A stretch of DNA of 26,909 nt from a virus, in the IMG/VR virus record IMGVR_UViG_3300047463_000143, positions 1-26,909 of that record. The stretch is one strand, 5' to 3'. The position numbers and the translations under genes were made by a program. How positions within the stretch are numbered: the first letter of the stretch is position 1; every line of letters begins with the position of its first letter. Below, in pieces: positions 4,740-26,909 of this stretch. The notes under the pieces are model-generated. The model was not told the origin of the DNA. It ran no database searches and saw only the letters and a program-made list of their open reading frames with translations.

Positions 4740-4792
4740 ACAACACATCTACGCCAAGACCACTAATGATTAACCCCACTAAAGGAGAAGGA

Positions 4793-4987
4793 ATGAATAT
4801 CGACGCGCAAAAGATAGTGAACGTACTCGCTACTCAACGAAATGCCGCGCTAGACGATTCCGCAAGGTTACAAGCAATGTTTATTCAGGTTCAAGAATTA
4901 GCCGAAGCCACACAAACAAAACTCATTAAATACATAGACAAATACGGCGATCTTGATGACAAAGCGCCGCTAGAGGCGGTGAAATGA
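4793..4987 (+). CDS. small helical hypothetical protein
   Basis: A 64-residue protein. I chose the ATG at 4793 over the in-frame ATG at 4766 because an AAAGGAG site lies at the right distance only for the former. The protein is almost entirely helical (DAQKIVNVLATQRNAALDDS, VQELAEATQTKLIKYIDKYG) and could form a coiled coil. Its stop overlaps the next start (ATGA). It lies between a fibre gene and small membrane genes. Function unknown. Confidence 0.75.
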   Translation: MNIDAQKIVNVLATQRNAALDDSARLQAMFIQVQELAEATQTKLIKYIDKYGDLDDKAPLEAVK

Positions 4988-5280
4988 GCGACTACCTAAT
5001 CGCCTCGCTCGCATTCCTGTTCATTCTGGACTGCATCACCACGCACCAAATTTTGAAAGCTGGCGGCAAGGAGCTGAACGGGCCATTAGCCAAGCTCATG
5101 TCGATGATAGGTGTGGATGAGGCGCTGGGCTTGAGCAAGATCATCGTTCTGGCCTTTATTATGGCGATGTACGTTAATGATTTATTTTTTGGTTATGAGC
5201 TTTACGTTTTAGGCAGTATCAATTTGATGTATGCGGGGATTGTTGTGTCAAATTGTTTTGTTCTAAAGAATTTGAAGTGA
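4984..5280 (+). CDS. small integral membrane protein (DUF5658-like)
   Basis: A 98-residue protein with three hydrophobic segments: about 4-17 (YLIASLAFLFILDC), 50-65 (KIIVLAFIMAMYV) and 72-92 (ELYVLGSINLMYAGIVVSNC). The pattern LDCITTHQILKAGGKELNGP, with a TT/N-G-P loop after the first segment, resembles the small phage and bacterial membrane proteins grouped as DUF5658; this is from memory. Base composition is higher in G+C at its start than in its neighbours. Translation is coupled both ways (ATGA in, GTGA out). Confidence 0.7.
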   Translation: MSDYLIASLAFLFILDCITTHQILKAGGKELNGPLAKLMSMIGVDEALGLSKIIVLAFIMAMYVNDLFFGYELYVLGSINLMYAGIVVSNCFVLKNLK

Positions 5281-5369
5281 TAGAAATAATTGGCGTTCTA
5301 GTTATTTTTGGAATTATTTCGCTAGTTATATTTTTATTTTTGTGGATGACTGGGGGTTGTGATGATTAA
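5277..5369 (+). CDS. 30-residue single-span membrane micro-protein
   Basis: A GTG start overlaps the TGA of the previous gene (GTGA). The 30 codons read IEIIGVLVIFGIISLVIFLF followed by LWMTGGCDD and TAA. One uninterrupted hydrophobic span of about 22 residues is followed by a short acidic tail with one Cys. The next gene's start lies inside it, and its GGGGG serves as the ribosome site there. Coding status rests on the tight overlaps and the clean membrane span. Function unknown. Confidence 0.5.
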   Translation: MIEIIGVLVIFGIISLVIFLFLWMTGGCDD

Positions 5370-5526
5370 GTTGGAACTTGAAGTAAATGAGGTTAACGGT
5401 GTTTTGACAGCTTTGGGACAGTTGCCGTTTGTGCAAGTTCAAGGATTGATTGCAAAGATTCAACAACAAGCAACCTTGCAAATACAAGATCAAACAGATC
5501 AAAAACAGGTTATCGGAGATAAATAA
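5362..5526 (+). CDS. small conserved phage helical protein
   Basis: A 54-residue protein starting with MIKLELEVNEVNGVLTALGQ and continuing LPFVQVQGLIAKIQQQ. This is a recognisable small family found in many podoviruses near tail or internal protein genes (pattern LEVNxVNxxLxxLGxxP, then a Gln-rich helix). The ATG has GGGGG six bases upstream. The stop overlaps the next start (TAATG). The C-terminal third is a Gln/Asp-rich probable helix. No function is known to me. Confidence 0.75.
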   Translation: MIKLELEVNEVNGVLTALGQLPFVQVQGLIAKIQQQATLQIQDQTDQKQVIGDK

Positions 5527-5855
5527 TGTCCACTAATTCTTTTACAAAGACTGGCAATACCGTTGCTTTTATTGCTAATACTTCTGCTCCAACTCCAGTG
5601 CAAGCTGTTTCTTCCACGCTTGGAGGAAATCAATATCGTATTCTTAATGCTGGTTCTGTAACTGTATTTTTAGGATATGGGAATACTGCTAATGATGCGT
5701 CAAATAACGCATCTATAGTTTCTACAACAGGAATGGCTATTCCTTTGTTGGCTGGAACTGATGAAATTTTAACATTTATGCCTAATGCCTATTTTACTGG
5801 GATTACATCTTCATCAACAGCAAATATTTACATCACTCCTGGTGATGGATCGTAA
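5526..5855 (+). CDS. small all-beta structural protein
   Basis: A 109-residue protein, Ser/Thr/Asn/Ala-rich, with alternating strands (YRILNAGSVTVFLGYGNTA, then PLLAGTDEILTFMPNAYFTG) and the ending NIYITPGDGS. The same layout and a similar last segment (CYFTPGEGI) occur in the protein at 15737-16096, so the two are probably related virion proteins. It is coupled to the tail fibre gene that follows (TAATG). A decoration or fibre-associated role is inferred from the neighbour only. Confidence 0.7.
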   Translation: MSTNSFTKTGNTVAFIANTSAPTPVQAVSSTLGGNQYRILNAGSVTVFLGYGNTANDASNNASIVSTTGMAIPLLAGTDEILTFMPNAYFTGITSSSTANIYITPGDGS

Positions 5856-7546
5856 TGCTTAAAACAGTCAGCAACTATATCAACGTATTAGGTTCCCTTG
5901 TTTATAAGGGAACTTGGAACGCTTCTACCAACAATCCTGTATTGCAATCAGGTGTTGGTAATAAAGGAGATTACTATGTTGTGTCGGTTGCTGGCTCTAC
6001 TAATTTAGACGGCATTACTGATTGGGAAATAGGTGATTGGGCTGTATTTAATGGCTCTGTATGGGAAAAAATAGACAATACTGATGTTGTATTGTCTGTT
6101 AATGGTTATACCGGCGTTGTTGTTTTGTCTGCTTCAGATGTTGGCGCTACCCCTAATACTACCTATGTTATTGCGGGGTCGGGTCTTTCAGGTGGTGGTC
6201 AATTAACCGGAAACGTCACTCTTACCAATTCTGGAGTAACGTCATTTAATACCCGAACTGGCGAGGTTACGCTTTCCAGTTCTGATGTTACTACGGCCTT
6301 GGGATATACGCCCGGAACAGGAAACGTATCTTCCGTTACAGGAACATCGCCTATAGTTTCTTCCGGCGGTAACACGCCAGCTATCTCAATGCCCGCTGCG
6401 AATGCCACAACAAATGGCTATTTGACCAGTACGGATTGGACAACTTTTAACAATAAACAGCCATCGGGAACGTACGTTACCAACGTTACTGGGACTTCTC
6501 CAGTAGTATCTAGTGGAGGAACAACGCCCGCTATTTCCATTCCGGCGGCTAATGCAACCACTAACGGTTATTTGACCAGCACAGATTGGTCAACATTTAA
6601 TAGCAAACAACCGTCTGGAACGTATGTAACTTCTGTTAGCGGAACATCTGGTCGAGTATCTTCTACTGGAGGAACTACTCCAGTTATTGATTTGGTGGCT
6701 ACTACCGTAACTGCTGCAAGCTATGGAAACGCTAGTACGGTTGCCACTTTCACGGTAGATGCTTATGGAAGGTTGACCGCTGCCGCCAATGCATCTATTG
6801 CCATTGATGTTTCTGCCGTTTCTGGAGCGGTTGCAAATACGGTAAATGTAATCGCTGGTACAGGTTTATCGGGTGGTGGTGCTTTGACGGGTAACGTAAC
6901 GTTAAATTCCACGGCTAATAGCACTAATCAGAAGGTCACAGTACAAAATAATGGTGTTGTTGTTGGTTCTCAGCCGGTAATTAACTTTATTCCTGGCACA
7001 AACATAACGATAACAACCGCTAATGACAGTAACAATACTCGGTCAAACGTAACGATTTCTACTTCCGGTTTGGGGACAATGGCGACTCAAAACGCCAATA
7101 ACGTCACTATTTCTGGAGGAACTATTGAGAACGTAGCGTTGACGTTAGATAGTCTTAATAGTACGCCAATTGGGGCTTCTTCGCCTTCAACCGGCGTATT
7201 TACAACGATGAGTACGAGTGGCGTATATGCAACGATTGTAACTAAAACGGCAAATTACACTTTAACTACAACAGATTTTACTGTTTTGGCAAATGCGTCC
7301 ACCGCAGCTTTTACATTGACGCTACCAACAGCCGTTAATGCGTCTGGACAGATTTATACAATAAAGAAAATTGATTCTTCTGCTAATGCCGTGACTATAT
7401 CAACGACACTATCTCAAACTATTGACGGTCTAGCCAGTTATGCCTTAAGTTATCAATATCAAGGTTTACAAGTTCAGAGCACAAATAGCAATTGGGTGAT
7501 TATTAACACAATACCAGCAAGAAATGGCGTTAATGGGACATTCTGA
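5855..7546 (+). CDS. large tail fibre protein with 50-residue repeats
   Basis: A 563-residue protein. Residues 10-80 (GSLVYKGTWNASTNNP, GNKGDYYVVSVAGS, DWEIGDWAVFNGSVWEK) are the classic start of large phage fibre proteins. Residues about 83-290 carry tandem units VTGTSPIVSSGGNTPAI ... TNGYLTSTDWTTFNNKQPSG. A GLSGGGALTGNVTL motif also occurs twice (about 108-118 and 333-343). The C-terminus (TTTDFTVLANASTAAFTLTL, then YTIKKIDSSANAVTI) is a common terminal beta domain. It should be a trimeric host-recognition fibre. Both ends overlap neighbouring genes by 1 base. Confidence 0.85.
   Translation: MLKTVSNYINVLGSLVYKGTWNASTNNPVLQSGVGNKGDYYVVSVAGSTNLDGITDWEIGDWAVFNGSVWEKIDNTDVVLSVNGYTGVVVLSASDVGATPNTTYVIAGSGLSGGGQLTGNVTLTNSGVTSFNTRTGEVTLSSSDVTTALGYTPGTGNVSSVTGTSPIVSSGGNTPAISMPAANATTNGYLTSTDWTTFNNKQPSGTYVTNVTGTSPVVSSGGTTPAISIPAANATTNGYLTSTDWSTFNSKQPSGTYVTSVSGTSGRVSSTGGTTPVIDLVATTVTAASYGNASTVATFTVDAYGRLTAAANASIAIDVSAVSGAVANTVNVIAGTGLSGGGALTGNVTLNSTANSTNQKVTVQNNGVVVGSQPVINFIPGTNITITTANDSNNTRSNVTISTSGLGTMATQNANNVTISGGTIENVALTLDSLNSTPIGASSPSTGVFTTMSTSGVYATIVTKTANYTLTTTDFTVLANASTAAFTLTLPTAVNASGQIYTIKKIDSSANAVTISTTLSQTIDGLASYALSYQYQGLQVQSTNSNWVIINTIPARNGVNGTF
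6335..6680 (+). repeat. 150-bp in-frame tandem repeat of the fibre shaft
   Basis: Homologous positions (GTT of VTGTS / VSGTS) fall at 6335, 6485 and 6635, an exact 150-base (50-codon) period. The first two units are full copies and the third is a diverged partial one. Most differences between copies are synonymous. Confidence 0.8.
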
Positions 7547-7887
7547 TGAATTTTGATGCTTTATCAATGGTGAAGTTTGGTGATCGGGATAGCCTGGGTG
7601 AATTTCTTTGGGAAAATGGATTGGAACATAGATTGTTTCAACAGACATTTATGGATCAAGGAATTACCCTACCAATATTTCCGATCATTGATGCTGACAT
7701 TGATAATTTAGATGATTGGTTATTAGCTCATCAAGTTGAACATCAAGCGTTTGCTAGTTTGTTAGGGTTAGAAAATCCTTTTAATTTGTTAGATACAGAT
7801 TGGAACGTTGAAAGCGATTTTTACGATTGGTTAAATCAGCATTACAACATTCATGTCGCTATAGCTAACTCTTTAAATCTTACTTAG
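7546..7887 (+). CDS. hypothetical structural-region protein
   Basis: A 113-residue acidic protein rich in Asp, Leu, His, Phe and Trp. It has two related halves: LGEFLWENGLEHRLFQQTF and LDDWLLAHQVEHQAFASLLG, followed by DFYDWLNQHYNIHVAIANSL. Each half has the shape [D/E]xLxxxHxxEHxxF, so the protein looks like two or three copies of a helical hairpin. I have seen such small acidic proteins between fibre genes and internal virion genes of phages, but I know no function. Its start overlaps the fibre stop (TGATG). Confidence 0.7.
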   Translation: MNFDALSMVKFGDRDSLGEFLWENGLEHRLFQQTFMDQGITLPIFPIIDADIDNLDDWLLAHQVEHQAFASLLGLENPFNLLDTDWNVESDFYDWLNQHYNIHVAIANSLNLT

Positions 7888-7895
7888 AAAAAATC

Positions 7896-9425
7896 ATGGC
7901 AATCAATCCAACCAACTGGGGCTACACGCCAAACTATGTTCAAAACCCAATCACTATGGAGTGGGAGTGGACGGGTCGCCCTGAAACTAGCTGGATGCAA
8001 TCTGACAATGAGCAACTAACTTCAAAACCTTGGATTGAAAATGTCATTCCAACTTCAGGTCGAGTACCTGCGCCCACTACCGGTCTAGACATTAACAATG
8101 CCATGGTGGTTCGTGGGCCTGATGGTCGCTTGTATAACGCATTTCAGGCTGGACTTAACCCGTTTGAGTTTCAAGTCACAAACGAAGGGCGTATTCGTAG
8201 TTCATCGAATCAAGGTGACGCTACTTATTTTGATTCACCGATTGCTGGTTTTACTAATATTGGTGGAACTGACTATATCCTGACAGACCCTAAAGCCGGA
8301 TTGCCGGGATATCAAACTTATGCTCCTCCTGCTGCTGATGCAGGGTTTAGCGGCGCTGAATTAGTACCATTGCCAGTACAAATAGCAATTGGACAAGGAT
8401 TGCTTAGTTCCATATTGCCAGCAGGGGGATTAAGTTCTTTTATTCAAAATCCCGTAGTCCAAGGTGCTGCTAGAGCAGCAGCACAAGGCGGGGATTTACA
8501 AGATATTTTGAAAGGTGGCGCTGTTGGAGGTCTTTCCTCATTAGCAGGTTCTACTGCTGGGGAACTTGTTGGTGGTGATTTGGGAAAAGTAGCGTCTGGA
8601 GCCGCAGGAGCGGCTACTAGAGCTGGTCTGACTGGTCAGGATATAGGAAGGGCAGCTTTGCTAGGAGGAGCGTCTGCCGGAGCTTCTGAGGCTTTAAAAG
8701 ACATTACGTCTGAGCCTGGGACTGATGTCACCACCTCAGAAACCATGCCGGCCGCGATTGAACCTAGCGCGGCTGGAGAGGGCGCTCCGCAAGAGTTGGC
8801 TCCAACTGAGTTTCAGCCGGAAAGTGAGTTTACACCAACTTATCCGCAAACAGATATACAGTTTGATGAGCCAGTTAGGTCTGAAACGGGTGAACAACTA
8901 AGCCCCCAAGAAGTCGCCCAAACCTATCCAGACTTGTACCCTGGCGGTCGTGTTCCTGAGCCTTCAGAAGAAACCACTTATTTTCCAGGTGGGGAGGCTA
9001 TTACTTATGAAAGACCTGTACGCGGTCAATTAGACCCAATGGACTATCCGATCTTTAGTCCTGAAGGTGAAATGTTAAGCCCTGATGAAGTTGCTGCCCA
9101 ATACCCAGATTTATACCCTGGAGGCGTGTTGCCTCAAGAGGGGGAAATTACAACTTACGCGCCCGGAACATCTGGAGTATCTGTATCTCCAAGTGTATTG
9201 TCACAGGTGTTTAATTTGGGCATGGGAATTCCTACTCAAAAAACCACTTCCGTAGCTCCTGTAGGTAGATATTCGCCTAGCGCCTCGGCTATGTTAGGTG
9301 CTGCTGCTTCGCCTAGCAGGGCCATGGGAGAGGGAGATATTGAATCCTCACGCACTGGCGGGAAACGTAAAAACGTATGGAATATAGCTTCTTTGAAAAA
9401 TCTTCAAGAAGGATTGGGTGTTTAA
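7896..9425 (+). CDS. large virion-associated protein with YPDLYPGG repeats
   Basis: A 509-residue protein. Residues 1-150 are Trp/Asn/Pro-rich and look folded. Residues about 160-270 are Gly/Ala-rich with small hydrophobic residues (GGAVGGLSSLAGSTAGELVG and following), the pattern of internal virion or ejection proteins that cross the cell envelope. Residues about 328-364 and 387-424 are two copies of a repeat with core LSPxEVAxxYPDLYPGG followed by a Pro/Glu-rich part and PG. The last 100 residues are low complexity. It stops one base before the next gene, which carries a third copy. Function is inferred from position and composition. Confidence 0.6.
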   Translation: MAINPTNWGYTPNYVQNPITMEWEWTGRPETSWMQSDNEQLTSKPWIENVIPTSGRVPAPTTGLDINNAMVVRGPDGRLYNAFQAGLNPFEFQVTNEGRIRSSSNQGDATYFDSPIAGFTNIGGTDYILTDPKAGLPGYQTYAPPAADAGFSGAELVPLPVQIAIGQGLLSSILPAGGLSSFIQNPVVQGAARAAAQGGDLQDILKGGAVGGLSSLAGSTAGELVGGDLGKVASGAAGAATRAGLTGQDIGRAALLGGASAGASEALKDITSEPGTDVTTSETMPAAIEPSAAGEGAPQELAPTEFQPESEFTPTYPQTDIQFDEPVRSETGEQLSPQEVAQTYPDLYPGGRVPEPSEETTYFPGGEAITYERPVRGQLDPMDYPIFSPEGEMLSPDEVAAQYPDLYPGGVLPQEGEITTYAPGTSGVSVSPSVLSQVFNLGMGIPTQKTTSVAPVGRYSPSASAMLGAAASPSRAMGEGDIESSRTGGKRKNVWNIASLKNLQEGLGV

Positions 9426-16489: not shown

Positions 16490-16839
16490 ACTGGGAATTT
16501 ATTTTTTTTGTTGTTATAACGATTATGGATTTATCGGCGGCGGTTATTATTTTTGTTGGTTCTTTATCTGAAAGAATGCGTCTTTATCCGACTTGGCACA
16601 AAGTTGGTTTAATAATCGCTGTTATTGGACTTATTTGCCAATCTTTTAGAAATGTTCAATATCTTTCTACGGGGGTATCACCATCAGATGTTGATGTTCC
16701 CTTATGGGTTTTTAAGGATGTTGGAATTGCAATAATTGCATTTACTTATTTGAGTATTGCAATTAAAAAACATTTTTTTGGACACAAAGTTAATAAAATG
16801 TCCAAAAACAAATCTAAAAATGTCCAAAAAAAGAATTAA
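16486..16839 (+). CDS. three-span membrane protein, lysis cassette
   Basis: A 117-residue protein. Hydrophobic segments lie at about 4-26 (EFIFFVVITIMDLSAAVIIF), 38-57 (KVGLIIAVIGLICQSF) and 74-93 (VFKDVGIAIIAFTYLSIAIK). A Lys-rich tail follows (KMSKNKSKNVQKKN). It starts inside the stop of the previous gene and ends two bases before the 3TM holin-like gene. Antiholin, holin or superinfection-exclusion roles are all possible; nothing in the sequence separates them. Confidence 0.65.
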   Translation: MNWEFIFFVVITIMDLSAAVIIFVGSLSERMRLYPTWHKVGLIIAVIGLICQSFRNVQYLSTGVSPSDVDVPLWVFKDVGIAIIAFTYLSIAIKKHFFGHKVNKMSKNKSKNVQKKN

Positions 16840-16841
16840 CA

Positions 16842-17348
16842 ATGTTTACTCTATTAACTACTGTAATTTCATTTCTTTCTGGTGGCGTTCCCAAGATACT
16901 AGATTTCTTTCAAGACCGCGCCGACAAGAAGCATGAATTGGCTTTGGCGGCACTCCAGACCGAGCGTGAACTGGCTCTCAAGAAAGCGGGCCTGGAAGCC
17001 CAAGAACGCATCGAGCATATCCAGACTGAGCAGCTACAGATCAGCGCAGAGGTGTCCCACGCACAAGTCGCGGTGCAGGAACGTCAAGCTCTGTATGCCC
17101 ACGACATTGCGATTGGTCAGGGTGCAAGCGTTTGGGTTATCAACCTTCGAGCTTTAGTAAGGCCAGCGATAACCTACGGTATGTTCCTGATGTTCGCGTT
17201 TGTGGAAGTCTTTGGTTTTTACTATGCGATCCATACCGGAATAGATTTCACCGTTGCTCTGGACAATCTGTGGGATGACGATACCCAGACGATTTGGGCG
17301 TCAATTGTTTCGTTTTGGTTCGGGACACAAGCGTTTAGCAAGAAATGA
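16842..17348 (+). CDS. 3TM holin-like protein
   Basis: A 168-residue protein. A weakly hydrophobic N-terminus (FTLLTTVISFLSGGVPKILD) is followed by a long Glu/Gln/Ala coiled coil (residues about 28-90). Two strong spans follow at about 106-128 (ALVRPAITYGMFLMFAFVEV) and 150-163 (ASIVSFWFGTQAF). This arrangement and the motif RPxxTY...FWFG match the remembered family of 3TM holins (GTA_holin_3TM type). The stop overlaps the endolysin start (ATGA), the classic holin-lysin coupling. It should make the lesions that release or trigger the endolysin. G+C rises after residue 25, possibly marking exchange. Confidence 0.8.
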   Translation: MFTLLTTVISFLSGGVPKILDFFQDRADKKHELALAALQTERELALKKAGLEAQERIEHIQTEQLQISAEVSHAQVAVQERQALYAHDIAIGQGASVWVINLRALVRPAITYGMFLMFAFVEVFGFYYAIHTGIDFTVALDNLWDDDTQTIWASIVSFWFGTQAFSKK

Positions 17349-17792: not shown

Positions 17793-17942
17793 ATGGTTAA
17801 AAAAGGTCTGTATTACAACATCAACCGACGCAGGAAGTTGGGCTTGCCCGCCAAGAAGCCAGGTCAAAAAGGTTATCCGACTGCCCAAGCATTCCGTCAA
17901 TCAGCCAAAACCGCAATGAAAAGGAAGATGCGCCGTGGCTAA
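17793..17942 (+). CDS. small basic conserved phage protein
   Basis: A 49-residue protein reading MVKKGLYYNINRRRKLGLPA, KKPGQKGYPTAQAFRQSAKT, AMKRKMRRG. The pattern KKGLYxNIxxRRxxG...P[TS]xxAFxxSAKTAK recurs in small proteins of many T7-like and cyanophage-like podoviruses. It is extremely basic, so binding to nucleic acid or to an acidic virion protein is likely. It begins one base after the endolysin stop and its last codons overlap the next GTG start. Confidence 0.75.
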   Translation: MVKKGLYYNINRRRKLGLPAKKPGQKGYPTAQAFRQSAKTAMKRKMRRG

Positions 17943-18162
17943 GAAATCCACCAACCTTTCTGTTGGTAGAGGAGAGAAATTATCCGTTTCTCAAGGCGGA
18001 GGTTTAACCGCCAAAGGTAGGCGCAAATATAACAGGGAAACAGGATCAAACCTGCAAGCACCACAAAAGTCTGGGCCTCGACACAAATCATTTTGCGCCC
18101 GTAGTAAAGGTTGGACAGGTGAGCGAGGCAAAGCCGCTAGACGACGTTGGGGATGCCGGTAA
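17935..18162 (+). CDS. small basic conserved phage protein (DUF6321-like)
   Basis: A 75-residue protein with a GTG start 8 bases inside the previous gene. The core QGGGLTAKGRRKYNRETGSN, LQAPQKSGPRHKSFCARSKG W is the hallmark of a very widespread tiny phage protein (remembered as DUF6321). The invariant G-L-T-x-K-G-R, Y-N-R-x-T-G-S-N-L and K-S-F-C-A-R residues are all present. The family is basic and uncharacterised. It is the last + strand gene before the repeat array. Confidence 0.85.
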   Translation: MAKKSTNLSVGRGEKLSVSQGGGLTAKGRRKYNRETGSNLQAPQKSGPRHKSFCARSKGWTGERGKAARRRWGCR

Positions 18163-18192
18163 ATTTTTAATTAAAGTTCTCACCAACGTTGA

Positions 18193-18353
18193 GGCCCAGA
18201 CCAAGACCCAGACCAAGACCCAGACCAAGACCCAGACCAAGACCCAGACCCAGACCAAGACCCAGACCTAGACCTAGACCCAGACCTAGACCTAGACAAA
18301 GACCCAGACCTAGACCTAGACAAAGACCCAGACCAAGACCTAGACCCAAACCA
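18193..18353. repeat. hexanucleotide tandem array AGACCN, 25 units
   Basis: Between the convergent gene blocks lie 25 consecutive hexamers AGACCN (18198-18347), preceded by AGGCCC and followed by a degenerate AAACCA. Only the last base varies (C, A or T), apart from two AGACAA units. A higher-order pattern is visible: the first eight units alternate A/C, and the 24-base block AGACCC-AGACCT-AGACCT-AGACAA occurs twice in a row (units 14-17 and 18-21). Both strands stay open in one frame: Arg-Pro on +, Gly-Leu on -. No start with a ribosome site is seen, so I list it as a repeat. Confidence 0.95.
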
Positions 18354-18399
18354 TTTTTGCTTTAGAGGTTTTTTCATTTGATGTCTGGGCCGGTTTTTT
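18348..18399 (+). terminator. candidate rightward terminator after the late operon
   Basis: Two weak options use T-runs here. AAACC (18348-18352) pairs with GGTTT (18367-18371) before TTT. GTCTGGGCC (18383-18391) is followed by GG and TTTTTT and is the exact inverse of GGCCCAGAC at 18193-18201; it can also pair by 7 bases with the CCCAGAC copies in the array. The long loops make both unconventional. Confidence 0.4.
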
Positions 18400-18655
18400 A
18401 CTTCAGAATCCCGAACGACTCAATCACCCCCAGCTGTACGTACCAATCGTTCGGAAGTTTTTGCGCGTCTTTCCAGTTGTTATCAGTGAATGCACCAGTC
18501 TCGTAAACAACCGAGGCGTCTTCTAGCAACGCGCACGTTTCACTCACACCCGCAAGTTTCCCCGTGTAAATATAGTTGAGACAGAAAAACGTGACACGCT
18601 CACCGATCAGTTTCTCCAGACCTTCACCGTCGACTTGTTGAACCAGCTTTTTCAT
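18398..18655 (-). CDS. small conserved phage protein
   Basis: An 85-residue protein with AAAAGGAG upstream of its ATG. The core ERVTFFCLNYIYTGKLAGVS, then TCALLEDASVVYETGAFTDN, WKDAQKLPNDWYVQLGVIES F is a pattern I have seen in many phages of Pseudomonadota: a small beta-barrel-like protein with the motif LEDxxxVYETG. Function unknown. It is the last gene of the leftward block, separated from its upstream neighbour by 84 bases that contain an inverted repeat. Confidence 0.8.
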   Translation of the reverse strand: MKKLVQQVDGEGLEKLIGERVTFFCLNYIYTGKLAGVSETCALLEDASVVYETGAFTDNNWKDAQKLPNDWYVQLGVIESFGILK

Positions 18656-18681
18656 GATTTTCTCCTTTTGATAAATATGCC

Positions 18682-18702
18682 CAATCTGGGGAACGCAGAT
18701 TG
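18682..18702. promoter_or_regulatory. 7-bp inverted repeat upstream of the last leftward gene
   Basis: CAATCTG (18682-18688) and CAGATTG (18696-18702) form a perfect dyad with a 7-base centre. It lies 27 bases upstream of the start at 18655. It could be an operator or an RNA stem in the leader; there is no T-run on the - strand side. Confidence 0.45.
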
Positions 18703-18739
18703 CAAAACACTTCTTCGCAAATTTTAGTTACTTATACTT

Positions 18740-19075
18740 TCACTCCAATTGAATAATGTGTTCTTTAGGACAATCAATGCACTCCTTGTTGTTTGGATAA
18801 ATATAATCCCCATTTACCTTTCGATGCCCACATACGCCGTATTTGGCTCGCAAGTTGCAGTTATGTATGCACCGTTCGTTGTGCGTCTTTATCGCCGCCT
18901 CCGCTTTCTCTGCGCGTTCCTGCGCTGCCGCTGTAGCCGCATCTTGTAGGCGCTGGTTAAATGTCAGCTCGGCAATGATTTCGCTTTGAGATTCAACCTT
19001 AGCGCGAAGTTCATCTCGCTGCGCCCTGACGCAATTGGGGCGATCACAGAAGTATGAGCAAGAATGTATGTCCAT
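18740..19075 (-). CDS. Cys-rich hypothetical phage protein with central coiled coil
   Basis: A 111-residue protein. I prefer ATG 19075 over GTG 19078 because AAAGG lies 7 bases before it; its A is shared with the stop of the upstream gene (TGATG). The N-terminus HSCSYFCDRPNC has three Cys, a Glu/Ala/Gln coiled coil spans about 17-63, and the C-terminal part CIHNCNLRAKYGVCGHRKVN then KECIDCPKE has six more Cys and two His. The Cys layout suggests metal binding at both ends. Similar small proteins occur in phage accessory blocks, but I know no function. Confidence 0.75.
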   Translation of the reverse strand: MDIHSCSYFCDRPNCVRAQRDELRAKVESQSEIIAELTFNQRLQDAATAAAQERAEKAEAAIKTHNERCIHNCNLRAKYGVCGHRKVNGDYIYPNNKECIDCPKEHIIQLE

Positions 19076-20784: not shown

Positions 20785-21004
20785 TATTTTCCTTTATCAA
20801 TTTGTATCTTGCATATCGTTTTCCCCTGTCATTAATCATTTCCATTGAAATGGAATGTCCTTCACGTTTTAAATCATCAATGCGAGCCGCAAGCCTCATA
20901 CATTTTGCATCTCTGAGAGCATCCATGGGAGTGATCGGCCCTCTACGCAACATTGATAGAATTAAATTTGTTTGTTTATTTCCTTGTTGAACTCGTCGGC
21001 CCAC
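20777..21004 (-). CDS. winged-helix / helix-turn-helix phage protein
   Basis: A 75-residue protein with the pattern NLILSMLRRGPITPMDALRD, AKCMRLAARIDDLKREGHSI, followed by KRYARYKL. This is the well-known small helix-turn-helix module (ITPxxAL...C.RLAARI.DLR..GH.I) common in recombination and replication blocks of phages of Pseudomonadota. It has one HTH and a short beta wing, and DNA binding is likely. The GTG at 21004 is the only start upstream of the domain; it lies 43 bases inside the RecT-like gene, with AGGA directly before it. It may regulate the block or assist replication. Confidence 0.75.
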   Translation of the reverse strand: MGRRVQQGNKQTNLILSMLRRGPITPMDALRDAKCMRLAARIDDLKREGHSISMEMINDRGKRYARYKLIKENNG

Positions 21005-21858
21005 TCCTGTACCGACTGAGACTTTTTTTCAGACTGATCCTCCACCTTTATTTTTTTTGCAATCTCAGCGTAAATGCTGCTGGCTTCAACCAATCCAATT
21101 CGCTGAAACGTTGTTGTGTTGGAACGTTTCAACTGATCTAGTTTTTCCGCTTTCTGATCCGCTGGCATTTTGCTAGATACCACGCGGTTTACCATTTCCA
21201 TGAATGCGCTTACCCAATCCGCTTTGGAGTTGAGAACCGTTGATCCTTTATTTGGAACAACAAATTCCCATTCTTCGATCACATTATCAGGCATATCCTC
21301 GATAGTGCTCATGACAGGTTTTTTAACGTCCGCAGCATCGACGATCTGCACGTTACCCATGTCTTTAACCGGTGGGCGTTGAACATCAAAATCCTGAACC
21401 TCCTCCGGCGTATAAATGCCAACCACGCAACCAGGGAAAACTGTCCGAATTCCCTCACTGATGACTCTCGCTCGGAGCATGGCCCTGGGGTAATTTTTCC
21501 AATTATCTTTTTCTGCCAAACCAATGCGTTTGGCTTGATCTATTGTCCAAGAAATTGTCACCCCGCCGCCAGCCGGATGAGAAAACGTGGCTTTTACCTC
21601 TTGGTCGGTGTAAACGTCCCAGTTAATTTTTCCACCTGTAGACTGAAATCGAGCGAGCATTGCATCAGCTTTGAGAGCTGGCCTGCCCTGAATAACGTGA
21701 TAGTCCCTAGCGGCGATTGCCGGGTGCATACCCTCGGCCTGGGCAATCAGCATCAAAGCAATTGCCTGATCTGCATTTTTCATTCCGAATAAACCGCTTT
21801 TGGCAACAGCATTGCCCATGAATTGAATTTCATCCATCGTTACCAGTGCATTACTCAT
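20962..21858 (-). CDS. RecT-like single-strand annealing protein
   Basis: A 298-residue protein. The core ADQAIALMLIAQAEGMHPAI, AARDYHVIQGRPALKADAML, ARFQSTGG, the strand region VTISWTIDQAKRIGLAEKDN, then YPRAMLRARVISEGIRTVFP is the phage family annotated as RecT-like recombinase in many genomes. The C-terminal 90 residues are variable and polar. It should anneal complementary single strands made by the exonuclease encoded two genes upstream. ATGA couples it to the small gene upstream, and its ATG has a ribosome site AAAAGGAA within that gene. The family call is firm; annealing activity is by homology. Confidence 0.8.
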   Translation of the reverse strand: MSNALVTMDEIQFMGNAVAKSGLFGMKNADQAIALMLIAQAEGMHPAIAARDYHVIQGRPALKADAMLARFQSTGGKINWDVYTDQEVKATFSHPAGGGVTISWTIDQAKRIGLAEKDNWKNYPRAMLRARVISEGIRTVFPGCVVGIYTPEEVQDFDVQRPPVKDMGNVQIVDAADVKKPVMSTIEDMPDNVIEEWEFVVPNKGSTVLNSKADWVSAFMEMVNRVVSSKMPADQKAEKLDQLKRSNTTTFQRIGLVEASSIYAEIAKKIKVEDQSEKKSQSVQEWADEFNKEINKQI

Positions 21859-22091
21859 TTTGATTCCTTTTTAATAAATGGGATTTTTAGTTTTTTCTGG
21901 TTTTTTCCTGGGAAAAGTTCCTCAGCGCATACCAGATTTCCAGCGACGTAATAACTTATCCTACCGTAATGATTTTTATGTACTTTATCAACCACACCGA
22001 CATAGGGTTTCCCCCGATGTTCAAACGGATAAATTGCAACTACATCTCCAACCTTAACATATTTTTTTTTCCAATCAATACCGTGTTTCAT
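21855..22091 (-). CDS. small beta-rich hypothetical protein between recombination genes
   Basis: A 78-residue basic protein. KYVKVGDVVAIYPFEHRGKP, YVGVVDKVHKNHYGRISYYV AG looks like a single SH3-like or chromo-like barrel, with a basic C-terminal tail. It sits between the exonuclease and the annealing gene with 4-base overlaps on both sides, where lambda-like systems often place small partner proteins. It could bridge the two proteins or bind DNA. No family is recognised. Confidence 0.7.
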   Translation of the reverse strand: MKHGIDWKKKYVKVGDVVAIYPFEHRGKPYVGVVDKVHKNHYGRISYYVAGNLVCAEELFPGKNQKKLKIPFIKKESK

Positions 22092-22978
22092 TTCACCAAA
22101 AACCTTCTGGAACCTTCAACCTCTTTGACATACATTTTATAGGTTTCGGGTAATGCTTTTTCAAATGCTTTGGCATCGAATTTCATGGAGTTTTTTGCTT
22201 GCTTCCACGTAACCAAAGTTCCGTTATTTCCATCAAGAATTGATTTTTTCCCCATGAAAGTCATGATTCGAGTGGTGAGTGTTATCTCATCTTTTTCAAG
22301 TTTCGCAATCTGATCCTTGATAGCTCGCAGTTGCATCGCATCCATTTCAATGTTGGGCGTTGCGACGATTGACGTTCCATCATCGGATTTCATAATCGCT
22401 CTTAAATCGTCTGGATGTCTTGCTGCTGGTGGAGTGCGCGTTTGAATCGCAGCCCAAAGTTCTGCTTCCTGCTGGATCAAAACTTCTTTGTGGGCATCTT
22501 CAATGTTTATGGGATAAATGCACAGTTCCGCGCCTCCAAACAAAACGCAAAGATTTACATTTTGAACATTGAACACCGCAGCTTCGTGGATACATTGGGC
22601 CAAATCAGCGTCGGGAATGCGCGTTGATCCGTTATCACCGAATTTATCCCTGTTGTACGCCGAATAATTTTTTATTTCAAATAGAGTTTTATTGTCCTCG
22701 CTCACATAGTCAAAGTGGCTTCGCATCCATGGGTGCTTATGGTGAGTGCCTTCAATGTCCAGCTCTTTGAGCCGGATGTTGAGCCTGTCAGCGACTGCTG
22801 TGGCAATCGGAGCCTGGAGCCTCAATCCCCATTGGACGTTTTCCTGGTCAGAAATGTCCTCGATTTCTTTCTGGCCGGTTTTTTCCAGCCATACTTGACC
22901 GATGCGCCCGGATGCAATGCGCCGAGCATCGCCCGACCAGATTGCAGAGTTCCTGTTTTCAGGTGAGAAGTCAGCCAT
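22088..22978 (-). CDS. YqaJ-type viral recombination exonuclease
   Basis: A 296-residue protein from ATG 22978, chosen for the GGAG site; the upstream in-frame ATG at 22996 has none. The nuclease core is visible: helix with RRIASGRIGQVWLEKTG (about 19-35), QWGLRLQAPIA (49-59), FDYV (Asp90) and LFEIKNYS (Glu101, Lys103). It follows the D-x10-E-x-K layout of lambda-exonuclease/YqaJ enzymes that resect one strand of linear duplex DNA. The C-terminal 90 residues (about 210-296) are helical with an extra small domain. It pairs with the RecT-like gene to form a Red-like system for recombination or concatemer repair. Confidence 0.85.
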   Translation of the reverse strand: MADFSPENRNSAIWSGDARRIASGRIGQVWLEKTGQKEIEDISDQENVQWGLRLQAPIATAVADRLNIRLKELDIEGTHHKHPWMRSHFDYVSEDNKTLFEIKNYSAYNRDKFGDNGSTRIPDADLAQCIHEAAVFNVQNVNLCVLFGGAELCIYPINIEDAHKEVLIQQEAELWAAIQTRTPPAARHPDDLRAIMKSDDGTSIVATPNIEMDAMQLRAIKDQIAKLEKDEITLTTRIMTFMGKKSILDGNNGTLVTWKQAKNSMKFDAKAFEKALPETYKMYVKEVEGSRRFLVK

Positions 22979-23168
22979 TATTTTTCTCCAAGGCATTGAT
23001 AAATTCTTTTAGGTTATCAAAATCAGTTTGTTTTAATTTTCCGAATTGTTCTACAAAATCAAATAAATCATCAACATCTACATTGATGCTGAGATTGATT
23101 TTAGAGATATTCCTGATTCGGATTGCCTGTTCTATTTTTGCATCGTTTACATAGATATCGAATAGCAT
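22971..23168 (-). CDS. small acidic hypothetical protein
   Basis: A 65-residue protein with AGGAACT before its ATG. It is rich in Asp, Ile and Asn (DIYVNDAKIEQAIRIRNISK, INLSINVDVDDLFDFVEQFG). It overlaps the exonuclease start by 8 bases and could form a small partner of that enzyme. No family is recognised. Confidence 0.65.
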   Translation of the reverse strand: MLFDIYVNDAKIEQAIRIRNISKINLSINVDVDDLFDFVEQFGKLKQTDFDNLKEFINALEKNNG

Positions 23169-24978: not shown

Positions 24979-25638
24979 CTAAACGGTTGTCGCGGCTACA
25001 GGGGCGTCCTGGCCGGTTTCATGGGCAATTTCTTGCACTACCGGCAAAGGTGCTTTCGCCCATGGTGCGCGTCCCGCGTCGGTGGTGAGATCGGTTCTCA
25101 TTGGCATCACAACAACTAGCATATCCTGGCCAATATAGGCTAGAGAACAGCTATTGCCGCCCCAACCGAAAGTAAACCCTGCGCCGATATCTTTTGCAGC
25201 GTCCACAATGCGGACAAGGTAATCTGGATTGATCCAACAGGCTTGACCGTCCAGGGTTGACGGAATAACGCGACGATAATCGGGAAACGTGCCATCGATG
25301 GCGCGGGTGATAATACTTTGCCCATTCCAGTCGCACCGAATCTCGCCGGAATCCGATATCGAGAGTGTAATCGGTTCATCTTTTAACGATTTCATCGCGG
25401 GTTTCATCTTGAGCAAAGTATTCACCGCGTCCAAAGGCAAGATACCCGTCCATTCGCCCTCATTATCGCCTTTGGCAGCGGCACGATGTACCGCCAGCGT
25501 GTGCCCGTCCGTGGCGCATAAACGCGTCTCCAGCGGGTTAGATTCGACTAACACGCCGACAAGGTAGTATCGGATGTCTTTTACCGCTGCGAAACGGGAA
25601 ATGGCTTTCAGAGCATTGCGATCAATAGTGATTTTCAT
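24979..25638 (-). CDS. incomplete DNA polymerase III beta sliding clamp (DnaN-like)
   Basis: A 219-residue protein against about 366 in bacterial DnaN. DIRYYLVGVLVESN (21-34) and ATDGHTLAVHR (42-52), then ITRAIDGTFPDYRRVIP (110-126), match clamp domain II almost motif for motif. CWINPDYLVRIVDAAKDIG to VVVMPMR (134-181) matches the last half of domain III, including the C-terminal VVMPMR strand. Domain I and the first half of domain III are absent, and a 38-residue tail follows. Residues equivalent to the E. coli partner-binding pocket are kept (Arg23, Leu26, Thr43, Gly45, His46, Leu48, Pro119, Arg123, Val124, Val176, Met178). The leader is TATAGGAATTTACTT. Confidence 0.8.
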   Translation of the reverse strand: MKITIDRNALKAISRFAAVKDIRYYLVGVLVESNPLETRLCATDGHTLAVHRAAAKGDNEGEWTGILPLDAVNTLLKMKPAMKSLKDEPITLSISDSGEIRCDWNGQSIITRAIDGTFPDYRRVIPSTLDGQACWINPDYLVRIVDAAKDIGAGFTFGWGGNSCSLAYIGQDMLVVVMPMRTDLTTDAGRAPWAKAPLPVVQEIAHETGQDAPVAATTV

Positions 25639-25727: not shown

Positions 25728-26585
25728 TTAAGCCGCTATGCTTTCCGCTGTAGCATCTAGTGCTTGGATATAGTCTACGGCTTTTTGCGCCAGGGCTGCG
25801 GCCTTGAAAATAGCTTTGCTATCGTCGCGGCAGGCCTTTAGCCAGTTTTCAATGTATCCGGCATGGCGCAGCTCGCCCTGGATGCGGTAATCCGCGCAGA
25901 GAAAGGCCGCGGACATTTCCGCTACCAATTCTTCAAAAGCATAGGCAGGGTTACCGTATTTCCCCTTATCCAATTCCCGGTTTAACCTATGCTTTGCGCC
26001 TGTCCAATGTGCGAGCTCATGAAAGGCCGTTGCATAGTAGTTTGCTTCGCTATCGAAAGCTGTTTTATGCGGTAATTGAATGCGATCTTGACTAGGCATG
26101 TAAAAAGCCGCGTCTCCACCATGCGATATTGTTGCGCCAGTCTTAATAATGCGATCTTCGCAAGCCGGGATAGGGTTGAATTCCCCTTCCGGCTTTTCTG
26201 TCGGGATAATTTGAATGTCGGTTTGCTCAACGTTGAAAACAGCATAACCTCGAATTACGCAATAGTTGGATTCTGTTTCTCCGGTTTCGGCATTTGTTTT
26301 CACGGATACCGGCTTGAAAAATACAATATGCGTGGCTTTTTCTCCGGCTTTTACTTGAATTCCAGCGTCGTTCCATTGTTTATAAGTTGCCCATGATGGG
26401 TTACTGTAACCTTTGGCCATGCTCGCCATTCCGAGCAACAACCGATTAATTCCCTGATAGGGTTTCTGGCTAATGAAATTCTTATCAGCGCTGGAGTCTA
26501 CGCGCCAGGGTTTAATCCATGGTGCGGCGCCTTTTTCCAATTGTTCGATTATGCTATTTGTCACGTTTTCATAAATGTTGTTCAT
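25728..26585 (-). CDS. ardC: ArdC-type antirestriction protein
   Basis: A 285-residue protein from ATG 26585, with AGAGGAATTTATA upstream; the longer frame of 336 codons is rejected. Residues 1-130 are the ssDNA-binding ArdC N-terminal domain (IYENVTNSIIEQLEKGAAPW, PWRVDSSADKNFISQKPYQG IN, ATYKQWNDAGIQVKAGEKAT). Residues about 150-285 are a zincin-like domain with HELAH (189-193) and downstream EELVAE (218-223). Plasmid ArdC protects incoming DNA from restriction. It is the first gene of the leftward block after the promoter region, so early expression is expected. The symbol is by homology. Confidence 0.9.
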   Translation of the reverse strand: MNNIYENVTNSIIEQLEKGAAPWIKPWRVDSSADKNFISQKPYQGINRLLLGMASMAKGYSNPSWATYKQWNDAGIQVKAGEKATHIVFFKPVSVKTNAETGETESNYCVIRGYAVFNVEQTDIQIIPTEKPEGEFNPIPACEDRIIKTGATISHGGDAAFYMPSQDRIQLPHKTAFDSEANYYATAFHELAHWTGAKHRLNRELDKGKYGNPAYAFEELVAEMSAAFLCADYRIQGELRHAGYIENWLKACRDDSKAIFKAAALAQKAVDYIQALDATAESIAA

Positions 26586-26909
26586 TATAAATTCCTCTAT
26601 ATATAGTGCGACCATCCGGGACGCGCGGTACTGCATAATATGCAAGCATTGTGCCATTGTTCGCACTAGGCAATCCATCCTATAAACTCGCAATGTGACG
26701 TAATACGCCGTCACAATGTGACGTAATACGTCACCCATGCAGATATCATGCCAGCAATGGTATGTTAGTACTTACTTACAATAGGTTGACCGCATACGTA
26801 TTTAGATACGCATTATATATATGTAATATATGTTTAATGTGGTATTTATAATATGTATGCTCAGGAAGGTAGTAGGGGCAATTAAGTGTCTGCCACACTG
26901 CCAGCATGG
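26586..26909. other. non-coding promoter/operator region at the right edge
   Basis: No gene is supported. From left to right it holds TGCATA-A-TATGCA (26632-26644), the 8-bp inverse pair TAGTGCGA (26604-26611) / TCGCACTA (26661-26668), the operator-like palindromes listed separately, and an AT-rich stretch with CGTAT-TTAG-ATACG (26797-26810) and TATAAT at 26847-26852. The TATAAT could be the -10 of a rightward promoter leading out of the window; no matching -35 is seen. Confidence 0.6.
26691..26734. promoter_or_regulatory. tandem palindromic operator-like repeats
   Basis: CAATGTGACGTAATACG occurs twice (26691-26707 and 26714-26730), 23 bases apart. The second is part of a perfect 17-base palindrome GTGACGTAATACGTCAC (26718-26734; 8-base arms, one central base). 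The first forms GTGACG...CGTCAC over 26695-26714. They lie about 105-150 bases upstream of the ardC-like start, a natural place for a repressor or activator of the leftward transcript. Confidence 0.7.

Follow-up and report, generated by a model that had tools for sequence, protein, structure and literature searches.

The hexamer array and its reading frame

The window analysed here, i.e. the whole 26,909-nucleotide stretch of a viral genome (IMG/VR record IMGVR_UViG_3300047463_000143, positions 1 to 26,909), contains a short and strongly repetitive tract where two blocks of genes converge, within the following set of features:

17935-18162, + strand: DUF6321 gene (Pfam PF19846, E 1.7e-14), which ends the late block; a neighbour outside the gene pair
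18180-18377, - strand: dipeptide-repeat gene, 65 aa, with an ATG at 18377-18375 and a TGA stop at 18182-18180 (from the ORF list and its translation)
18198-18347, - strand: hexamer array, 25 hexamers NGG-TCT, two of them TTG-TCT, reading G/R/W/L-Ser
18378-18397, - strand: intergenic gap of 20 nt from partner to repeat gene, with an ATGA/GTGA overlap instead in 36 of 66 relatives
18398-18655, - strand: partner gene, 85 aa (family A), predicted Sm/LSm fold, with a AAAAGGAG-type ribosome site upstream of its ATG

Positions 18198-18347 hold an in-register run of 25 AGACNN hexamers, comprising 23 AGACCN and two AGACAA units (at 18294 and 18318) and followed directly by AAACCA, as had been described in an earlier reading of the window (hereafter the first-pass annotation). 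The nested 12- and 24-base repeats reported there were also recovered: Tandem Repeats Finder delimits the tract at 18195-18346 with a period of 12 and a score of 220, and the 24-base unit AGACCT AGACCT AGACAA AGACCC occurs twice within the array, at 18282-18329. A three-unit array pattern matched 17 times in the window, vs 0 times in 100 shuffles. Because a near-identical IMG/VR record of 33,734 b (L209; 99.98% identity to the window over 6,255 b, 1 mismatch) carries the same array, it is no accident of one assembly. Two other short tandem repeats are found in the window, at 16795-16845 and 26691-26734, with units of 22 and 23 bases.

The array can be read through without a stop in four frames, namely Arg-Pro and Asp-x on the + strand and Gly-Leu and x-Ser on the - strand, instead of the two open frames initially proposed, in both of which the variable base would be synonymous. 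In the x-Ser frame, this base is the first codon position and is non-synonymous, encoding W, G, or R, and this is also the only frame with an array-proximal ATG start upstream in the ORF list. The predicted 65-aa product consists of a basic head (MKKPLKQKWF), 25 x-Ser units in which x is G, R, W, or L, and the end GPQRW, such that the translated protein is almost entirely repeat. We regard it as nearly certain that the array forms the main part of a short minus-strand phage gene that had been overlooked and that codes for an x-Ser chain. This gene would presumably be translated; a clear Shine-Dalgarno sequence was not found upstream of its start, while the start of the partner gene has AAAAGGAG. 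The earlier notion of a peptide repeat under constraint is thus retained, as the peptide is kept across relatives, but the strand, frame, and start had been wrongly assigned.

Within the window, the DUF6321 gene (+) ends at 18162 and the repeat gene (-) at 18180, and the array does lie at a convergence of gene blocks as first noted; this placement is incidental, however, as relatives like L215 have further same-strand genes after the pair. The DUF6321 gene was itself considered as a partner of the array and rejected, as 80 DUF6321 relatives had varied downstream genes and no hexamer array within at most 210 nt. Further along the minus strand, the early block of the window includes genes for a RecT-like annealing protein (20962-21858), a RecE-like exonuclease (22088-22996), a protein with a sliding-clamp/RusA-like double match (24979-25638), and an ArdC-like antirestriction protein (25728-26738).

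An array at such a junction could instead be the outcome of neutral slippage in a non-coding tract, or serve as a terminator or as DNA bound by a protein. In line with these readings, the repeat length varies between near-identical phages, and a 9-base inverse pair brackets the array (GGCCCAGAC at 18193 and GTCTGGGCC at 18383), although GTCTGGGCC is not specific to this position and is also found at 18069 within the DUF6321 gene. We scanned positions 17900-18800 with a terminator consensus covering stem-loops with loops of 3-8 bases, the long-range 9-base pair being assessed within a single fold, and obtained 0 sites on the + strand and 2 on the - strand, with 1.3 +/- 1.2 expected. The multi-register terminator suggested in the first-pass annotation thus finds no candidate + strand site in this interval, and the T-runs flanking the array correspond to the codons of the Lys-rich head and to the stop codon of the neighbour, seen from the opposite strand.

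Pairing with predicted Sm-like protein genes

A search with the 85-aa protein yielded 18 viral loci, and an x-Ser ORF starts downstream in 18 of 18, one of these ORFs being cut by the contig end and one being just 23 aa long. Profile searches extended this set to 103 loci, or 102 after setting aside one without a stop codon in reach; 85 of these were distinct, and 74 had at least 330 nt downstream. Defining an x-Ser ORF by Ser at 7 or more of 10 alternate positions in 20 aa and by a start -12 to +80 nt from the family A stop, we found that 66 of the 74 distinct loci have one immediately behind their family A gene, whereas in a control only 5 of 710 other ORFs from the same loci had an x-Ser neighbour. 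Over half of the 66 x-Ser ORFs (36) share a 4-nt ATGA/GTGA overlap with the family A gene, while in the window the ATG lies 20 nt past the family A stop and is followed by 25 x-Ser units, which places this locus within the same definition. The eight exceptions comprise four loci with short versions (L224, L319, L336, L365) and four whose x-Ser ORFs are located at another place within the locus (L310, L330, L358, L360).

When the array was compared across close relatives, it was not absent from all of them, and its hexamer was found to vary. In the orientation of the window, the + strand hexamers of relatives are AGACCN, TGACCN, and CGACCN, with GCTCCN in L226; on the minus strand, NGG-TCT, NGG-TCA, NGG-TCG, and NGG-AGC all read (W/R/G)-Ser, and x-Ser is the sole frame surviving all hexamer types. 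Both Arg-Pro (+) and Gly-Leu (-) genes, from the two open frames named in the first-pass annotation, were rejected on these grounds, their frames being lost in TCA-, TCG-, and AGC-type relatives. An Arg-Pro gene with a rare start would encounter a TGA in every unit of the TGACCN-type relatives L210, L213, L223, and L224, and the codons of other relatives turn Gly-Leu into Gly-His/Gln, Gly-Arg, or Gly-Ala. The proposed protein-binding DNA array, e.g. of an iteron or partition type, is also unlikely, as the DNA motif differs among relatives that share the peptide. Taken together, the conserved placement with an open x-Ser frame (66 of 74 loci), the encoding of one peptide by several hexamers, the lack of a terminator-like site on the + strand in the consensus scan of 17900-18800, and the location of the pair away from any convergence in relatives leave a non-coding array, whether slipping neutrally or acting as DNA, with next to no credibility compared to a repeat gene.

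The reach of this arrangement was explored in several sequence collections. A scan of viral contigs for five AGACCN units returned at least 119 stretches, and among the 80 loci analysed, a family A gene was present in 32 and an alternating-Ser frame in 67, some of them of other kinds, e.g. Val-Ser. A family A search of phage records using L215 as the query matched MW202825.1 alone, and no family A member was found in plasmids. In GTDB, family A was detected on five contigs from MAGs of mixed phyla, which may be binned phage contigs. Overall, we consider it very probable that the two genes work together, and probable, with somewhat less assurance, that the repeat gene and the Sm-like gene form a gene pair as described here.

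In some loci, a single family A gene is followed by several repeat genes. L091 (-) has 14 x-Ser genes behind one family A gene, in two tandem clusters of 8 and 6 (reverse-complement 5543-7056 and 7692-8955), with nearly all genes joined head-to-tail by ATGA overlaps and with near-identical heads (MITKR[T/S]KWRR) but differing repeats; L105, L152, and L148 have similar clusters. In MW202825.1 (L081), two tandem x-Ser genes follow the family A gene on the minus strand (4809-4991, 4988-5170, 5170-5424), and the existing annotation includes the second x-Ser gene only (UOF82383.1, "hypothetical protein"), leaving both its tandem companion and the Sm-like gene unannotated. This GenBank record is marked as contaminated and includes, at about 4766-4799, a segment that resembles an Illumina adapter; the sequence to its left may be chimeric.

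Sequence-based annotation offered little indication of what the 85-aa partner may be. The window's copy matched 0 Pfam families at E 0.1 and no fitting family in NCBIfam or PHROGs, the latter giving a single weak match (E 0.008) for 1 of 81 family A members, and profile searches of PDB sequences with family A returned no Sm proteins. However, the AlphaFold2 model based on an 81-sequence alignment (pLDDT 94.8) displays a short N-terminal helix and a strongly bent five-stranded barrel with the strand order of the Sm barrel. Each of the 50 PDB matches listed by Foldseek was either an Sm or LSm protein or a chain from an Sm/LSm complex (probability 1.00, best E 1.7e-3), and VIA-align gave a Z of 10.7 to a yeast spliceosome chain (rmsd 2.2, 69 residues) and 10.6 to an archaeal Sm protein. 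On the strength of this model, we assign a predicted Sm/LSm fold to the 85-aa protein with high confidence. Among the viral models that resemble it are three DUF6948 proteins and, from Gordonia phage Reyja, an "RNA binding protein"; the 85-aa protein does not itself belong to DUF6948 (PF22253), with an hhalign probability of 0.3 against the DUF6948 alignment, even though the folds look alike.

Two further families show a comparable arrangement. Family B (about 111 aa) is related to family A (hhalign probability 97.1) and has an x-Ser gene next to it in 60 of 68 loci (duplicates counted, one GenBank locus included), and several of the repeat-gene clusters follow family B genes. DUF6948 genes (L478-L557; L472-L475) are instead followed by Gly-x repeats, with x mostly Ser, Tyr, or Asp, in 66 of 68 loci (duplicates counted), the repeat ORF overlapping the DUF6948 stop at offset -13 in 51 loci. 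No profile link was found between DUF6948 and family A or B. The DUF6948 model (pLDDT 93.7) has only Sm/LSm entries among its listed Foldseek matches, at VIA-align Z values of at most 7.0, a weak range in which chance arrangements occur. This DUF6948 and Gly-x arrangement is also present in the cultured phages PhiPLPE, Ymer, and CV-1-33, and three contigs, identified by eye from contig names, carry both family B and DUF6948.

Repeat turnover and charge opposition

Codon statistics were derived from 68 family A arrays, each containing no fewer than 10 Ser codons. The dominant Ser codon was TCT in 28 arrays, TCG in 26, TCA in 7, and AGC in 7; TCC and AGT were never dominant, though both code for Ser. 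Within arrays, Ser codons were highly uniform (mean 0.946, with 36 of 68 arrays fully uniform), and the x codons were more varied than the Ser codons in all 68. The x residues were 28% W, 27% R, and 34% G, and all three were present in each of the 64 arrays of at least 15 units. Measured across hexamers in 66 arrays, diversity was 0.643 at the amino-acid-changing first base and at most 0.149 at every other position. The Gly-x repeats are likewise diverse at the first two x bases, which change the amino acid, and nearly uniform at third bases, i.e. the DUF6948 arrays follow the same diversity pattern as the x-Ser arrays although their hexamer is unrelated. Adenine-directed mutagenesis was considered as a source of this diversity and rejected, the Ser-codon adenine being uniform in NGGTCA arrays (17 of 17 TCA codons in L210 and 25 of 25 in L213).

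Array length changes in steps of six bases, and the reading frame is therefore kept: in 6 of 7 pairs of near relatives, the repeat lengths were a multiple of 6 nt apart, and those of the seventh pair were measured from different start codons. In two pairs of loci (L220/L221 and L315/L316), the DNA of the 85-aa gene is identical and there are differences of 24 and 84 nt in the repeat gene, which implies that array turnover is much faster than that of the neighbouring gene. A tree of 72 85-aa proteins implied at least 24 changes of the dominant Ser codon, including 6 between TCN and AGC; few forks of this tree are resolved, so the value of 24 is a guide only, and the starred branches force just 1 change per codon.

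These observations are consistent with a process in which slippage or recombination would expand, contract, and homogenise hexamers in six-base steps, while selection would hold Ser at every second place and a W/R/G mix between. Homogenisation would affect all bases alike, and selection would restore the mixture of residues while having no reason to restore synonymous variety. The repeats can thus be read as a natural experiment in which synonymous bases are uniform and amino-acid-changing bases are mixed, as would follow if residue diversity were required by selection and eroded by slippage.

Constraint on the RNA could be another cause of the uniform synonymous Ser bases. In that case, the repeat would act as an RNA, offering a multivalent site for the Sm-like ring as a means of autoregulation or as a sponge, with the peptide being secondary. 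Sm-type rings bind short RNA motifs, and the minus-strand RNA folds better than shuffles (z -4.75, compared to -2.95 for the + strand), an excess for which repetitiveness alone may account. However, the motif varies (NGGUCU/A/G, NGGAGC) beside one partner family while the peptide is constant, and closely related partners are associated with different Ser codons (AGC in L332, TCG in L324 and L325). The basic head also comes after the start codon, and the same pattern appears in DUF6948 arrays with an unrelated hexamer and peptide. We therefore view an RNA role as improbable, and favour selection on the encoded chain.

The charges of the two products are opposed. All 66 family A proteins carry a net negative charge (mean -3.0), and 65 of the 66 repeat proteins paired with them are positive (mean +10.2). 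In family B, 54 of 59 proteins are negative and all 59 repeat proteins positive. The signs are reversed for DUF6948, with 9 of 49 proteins negative (mean +2.3) and 48 of 49 repeats negative (mean -9.2). This reversal suggests direct contact between the partners, the opposition amounting to two independent cases as families A and B are related. Alternatively, the repeat protein might act alone, e.g. as a W/R-rich membrane-active or host-binding peptide, with the Sm-like gene a mere steady operon neighbour. The basic W/R-rich composition of the x-Ser proteins would fit this possibility, as would the tandem clusters with up to 14 repeat genes per Sm-like gene (L091) and the four loci in which repeat genes lie elsewhere. 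It does not readily explain why repeat genes pair with three Sm-like families, in two peptide classes and with reversed charges, and we consider a lone peptide unlikely, although less so than a role as RNA.

Proposed joint function and relation to known systems

In the mechanism that we propose, the acidic Sm-like protein encoded by the first gene would form a ring, and the disordered, oppositely charged, and aromatic-rich repeat chain would bind this ring as a tail supplied in trans. The chain would probably bind nucleic acid as well, and the combination of ring and chain would give rise to a multivalent RNA (or DNA) assembly, presumably during infection. Binding between the Sm-like and repeat proteins is, in our estimate, close to an even call, falling slightly short of it. 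Assembly of nucleic acid by the pair is a more tentative proposal, and the mechanism as a whole, i.e. an Sm-like ring with a low-complexity partner acting in trans, is marginally more tentative again. More speculative still is a generalisation to a two-part phage Sm-like machine that would come in two or more mirror-image forms, which a single phage may sometimes combine, and that would build ribonucleoprotein condensates or compartments during infection, as a viral counterpart of those Sm/LSm proteins that bear low-complexity tails. The mirror forms of such a machine, equally speculative, would be an acidic ring with a basic W/R/G-Ser chain and a basic ring with an acidic Gly-Tyr/Ser/Asp chain, the sticker chain being encoded by the fast-evolving hexamer repeat in both.

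Several known systems resemble parts of this arrangement. Eukaryotic SR proteins are characterised by Arg-Ser repeats, and the repeat protein of the window similarly includes Arg-Ser dipeptides and is basic and of low complexity; in the phage repeat, however, W and G share the Arg places, and the 65-aa protein has no match in Pfam, including to an RNA-recognition domain which would stand beside the Arg-Ser repeat in an SR protein. In a survey of low-complexity regions (PMC6821194), aromatic residues and arginine are reported to be under-represented in such regions of bacteria, archaea, and phages, and the W/R-rich repeats run against this trend.

A further parallel is provided by DUF6948 (PF22253) and its Gly-Tyr/Ser/Asp genes, in which a small Sm-like gene likewise stands directly before a dipeptide-repeat gene whose repeats evolve in the same way; they differ from the pair in the window by a Gly-x rather than x-Ser repeat, by reversed charges, and by the lack of a detected profile link to family A or B. 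The DUF6948 model also matched PDB 3by7 (VIA-align Z 6.5, rmsd 3.0 over 69 residues), an Sm/LSm-like protein of uncultured marine origin obtained from environmental DNA, which was not among the matches listed for the family A model. Because the DUF6948 and Gly-x sister version occurs in cultured phages, laboratory tests can start there.

To our knowledge, no known system joins an Sm-like protein gene with a dipeptide-repeat gene, and no description of such a pair was found in open-licence papers; we therefore rate the gene pair as new, while the Sm fold itself is old. What was noticed as an odd repeat is thereby linked to a conserved and testable gene pair of many environmental phages. The pair resembles the Sm/LSm proteins (spliceosomal Sm, LSm1-8, archaeal SmAP, Hfq) through the predicted fold of the 85-aa partner and through an Sm domain that would work with a low-complexity chain, as some Sm proteins have low-complexity tails, including the Arg-Gly tails of SmB/D1/D3 and the tail of yeast Lsm4. 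Unlike these proteins, the partner is phage-borne and has no detectable sequence relationship to them, and the chain has a gene of its own, in which hexamer repeats spell out the dipeptide period. Should the proposed mode of action hold, phages would own an Sm-like ribonucleoprotein system in which the disordered chain is a separable part; this would bear on phage RNA handling and on the origin of Sm low-complexity tails.
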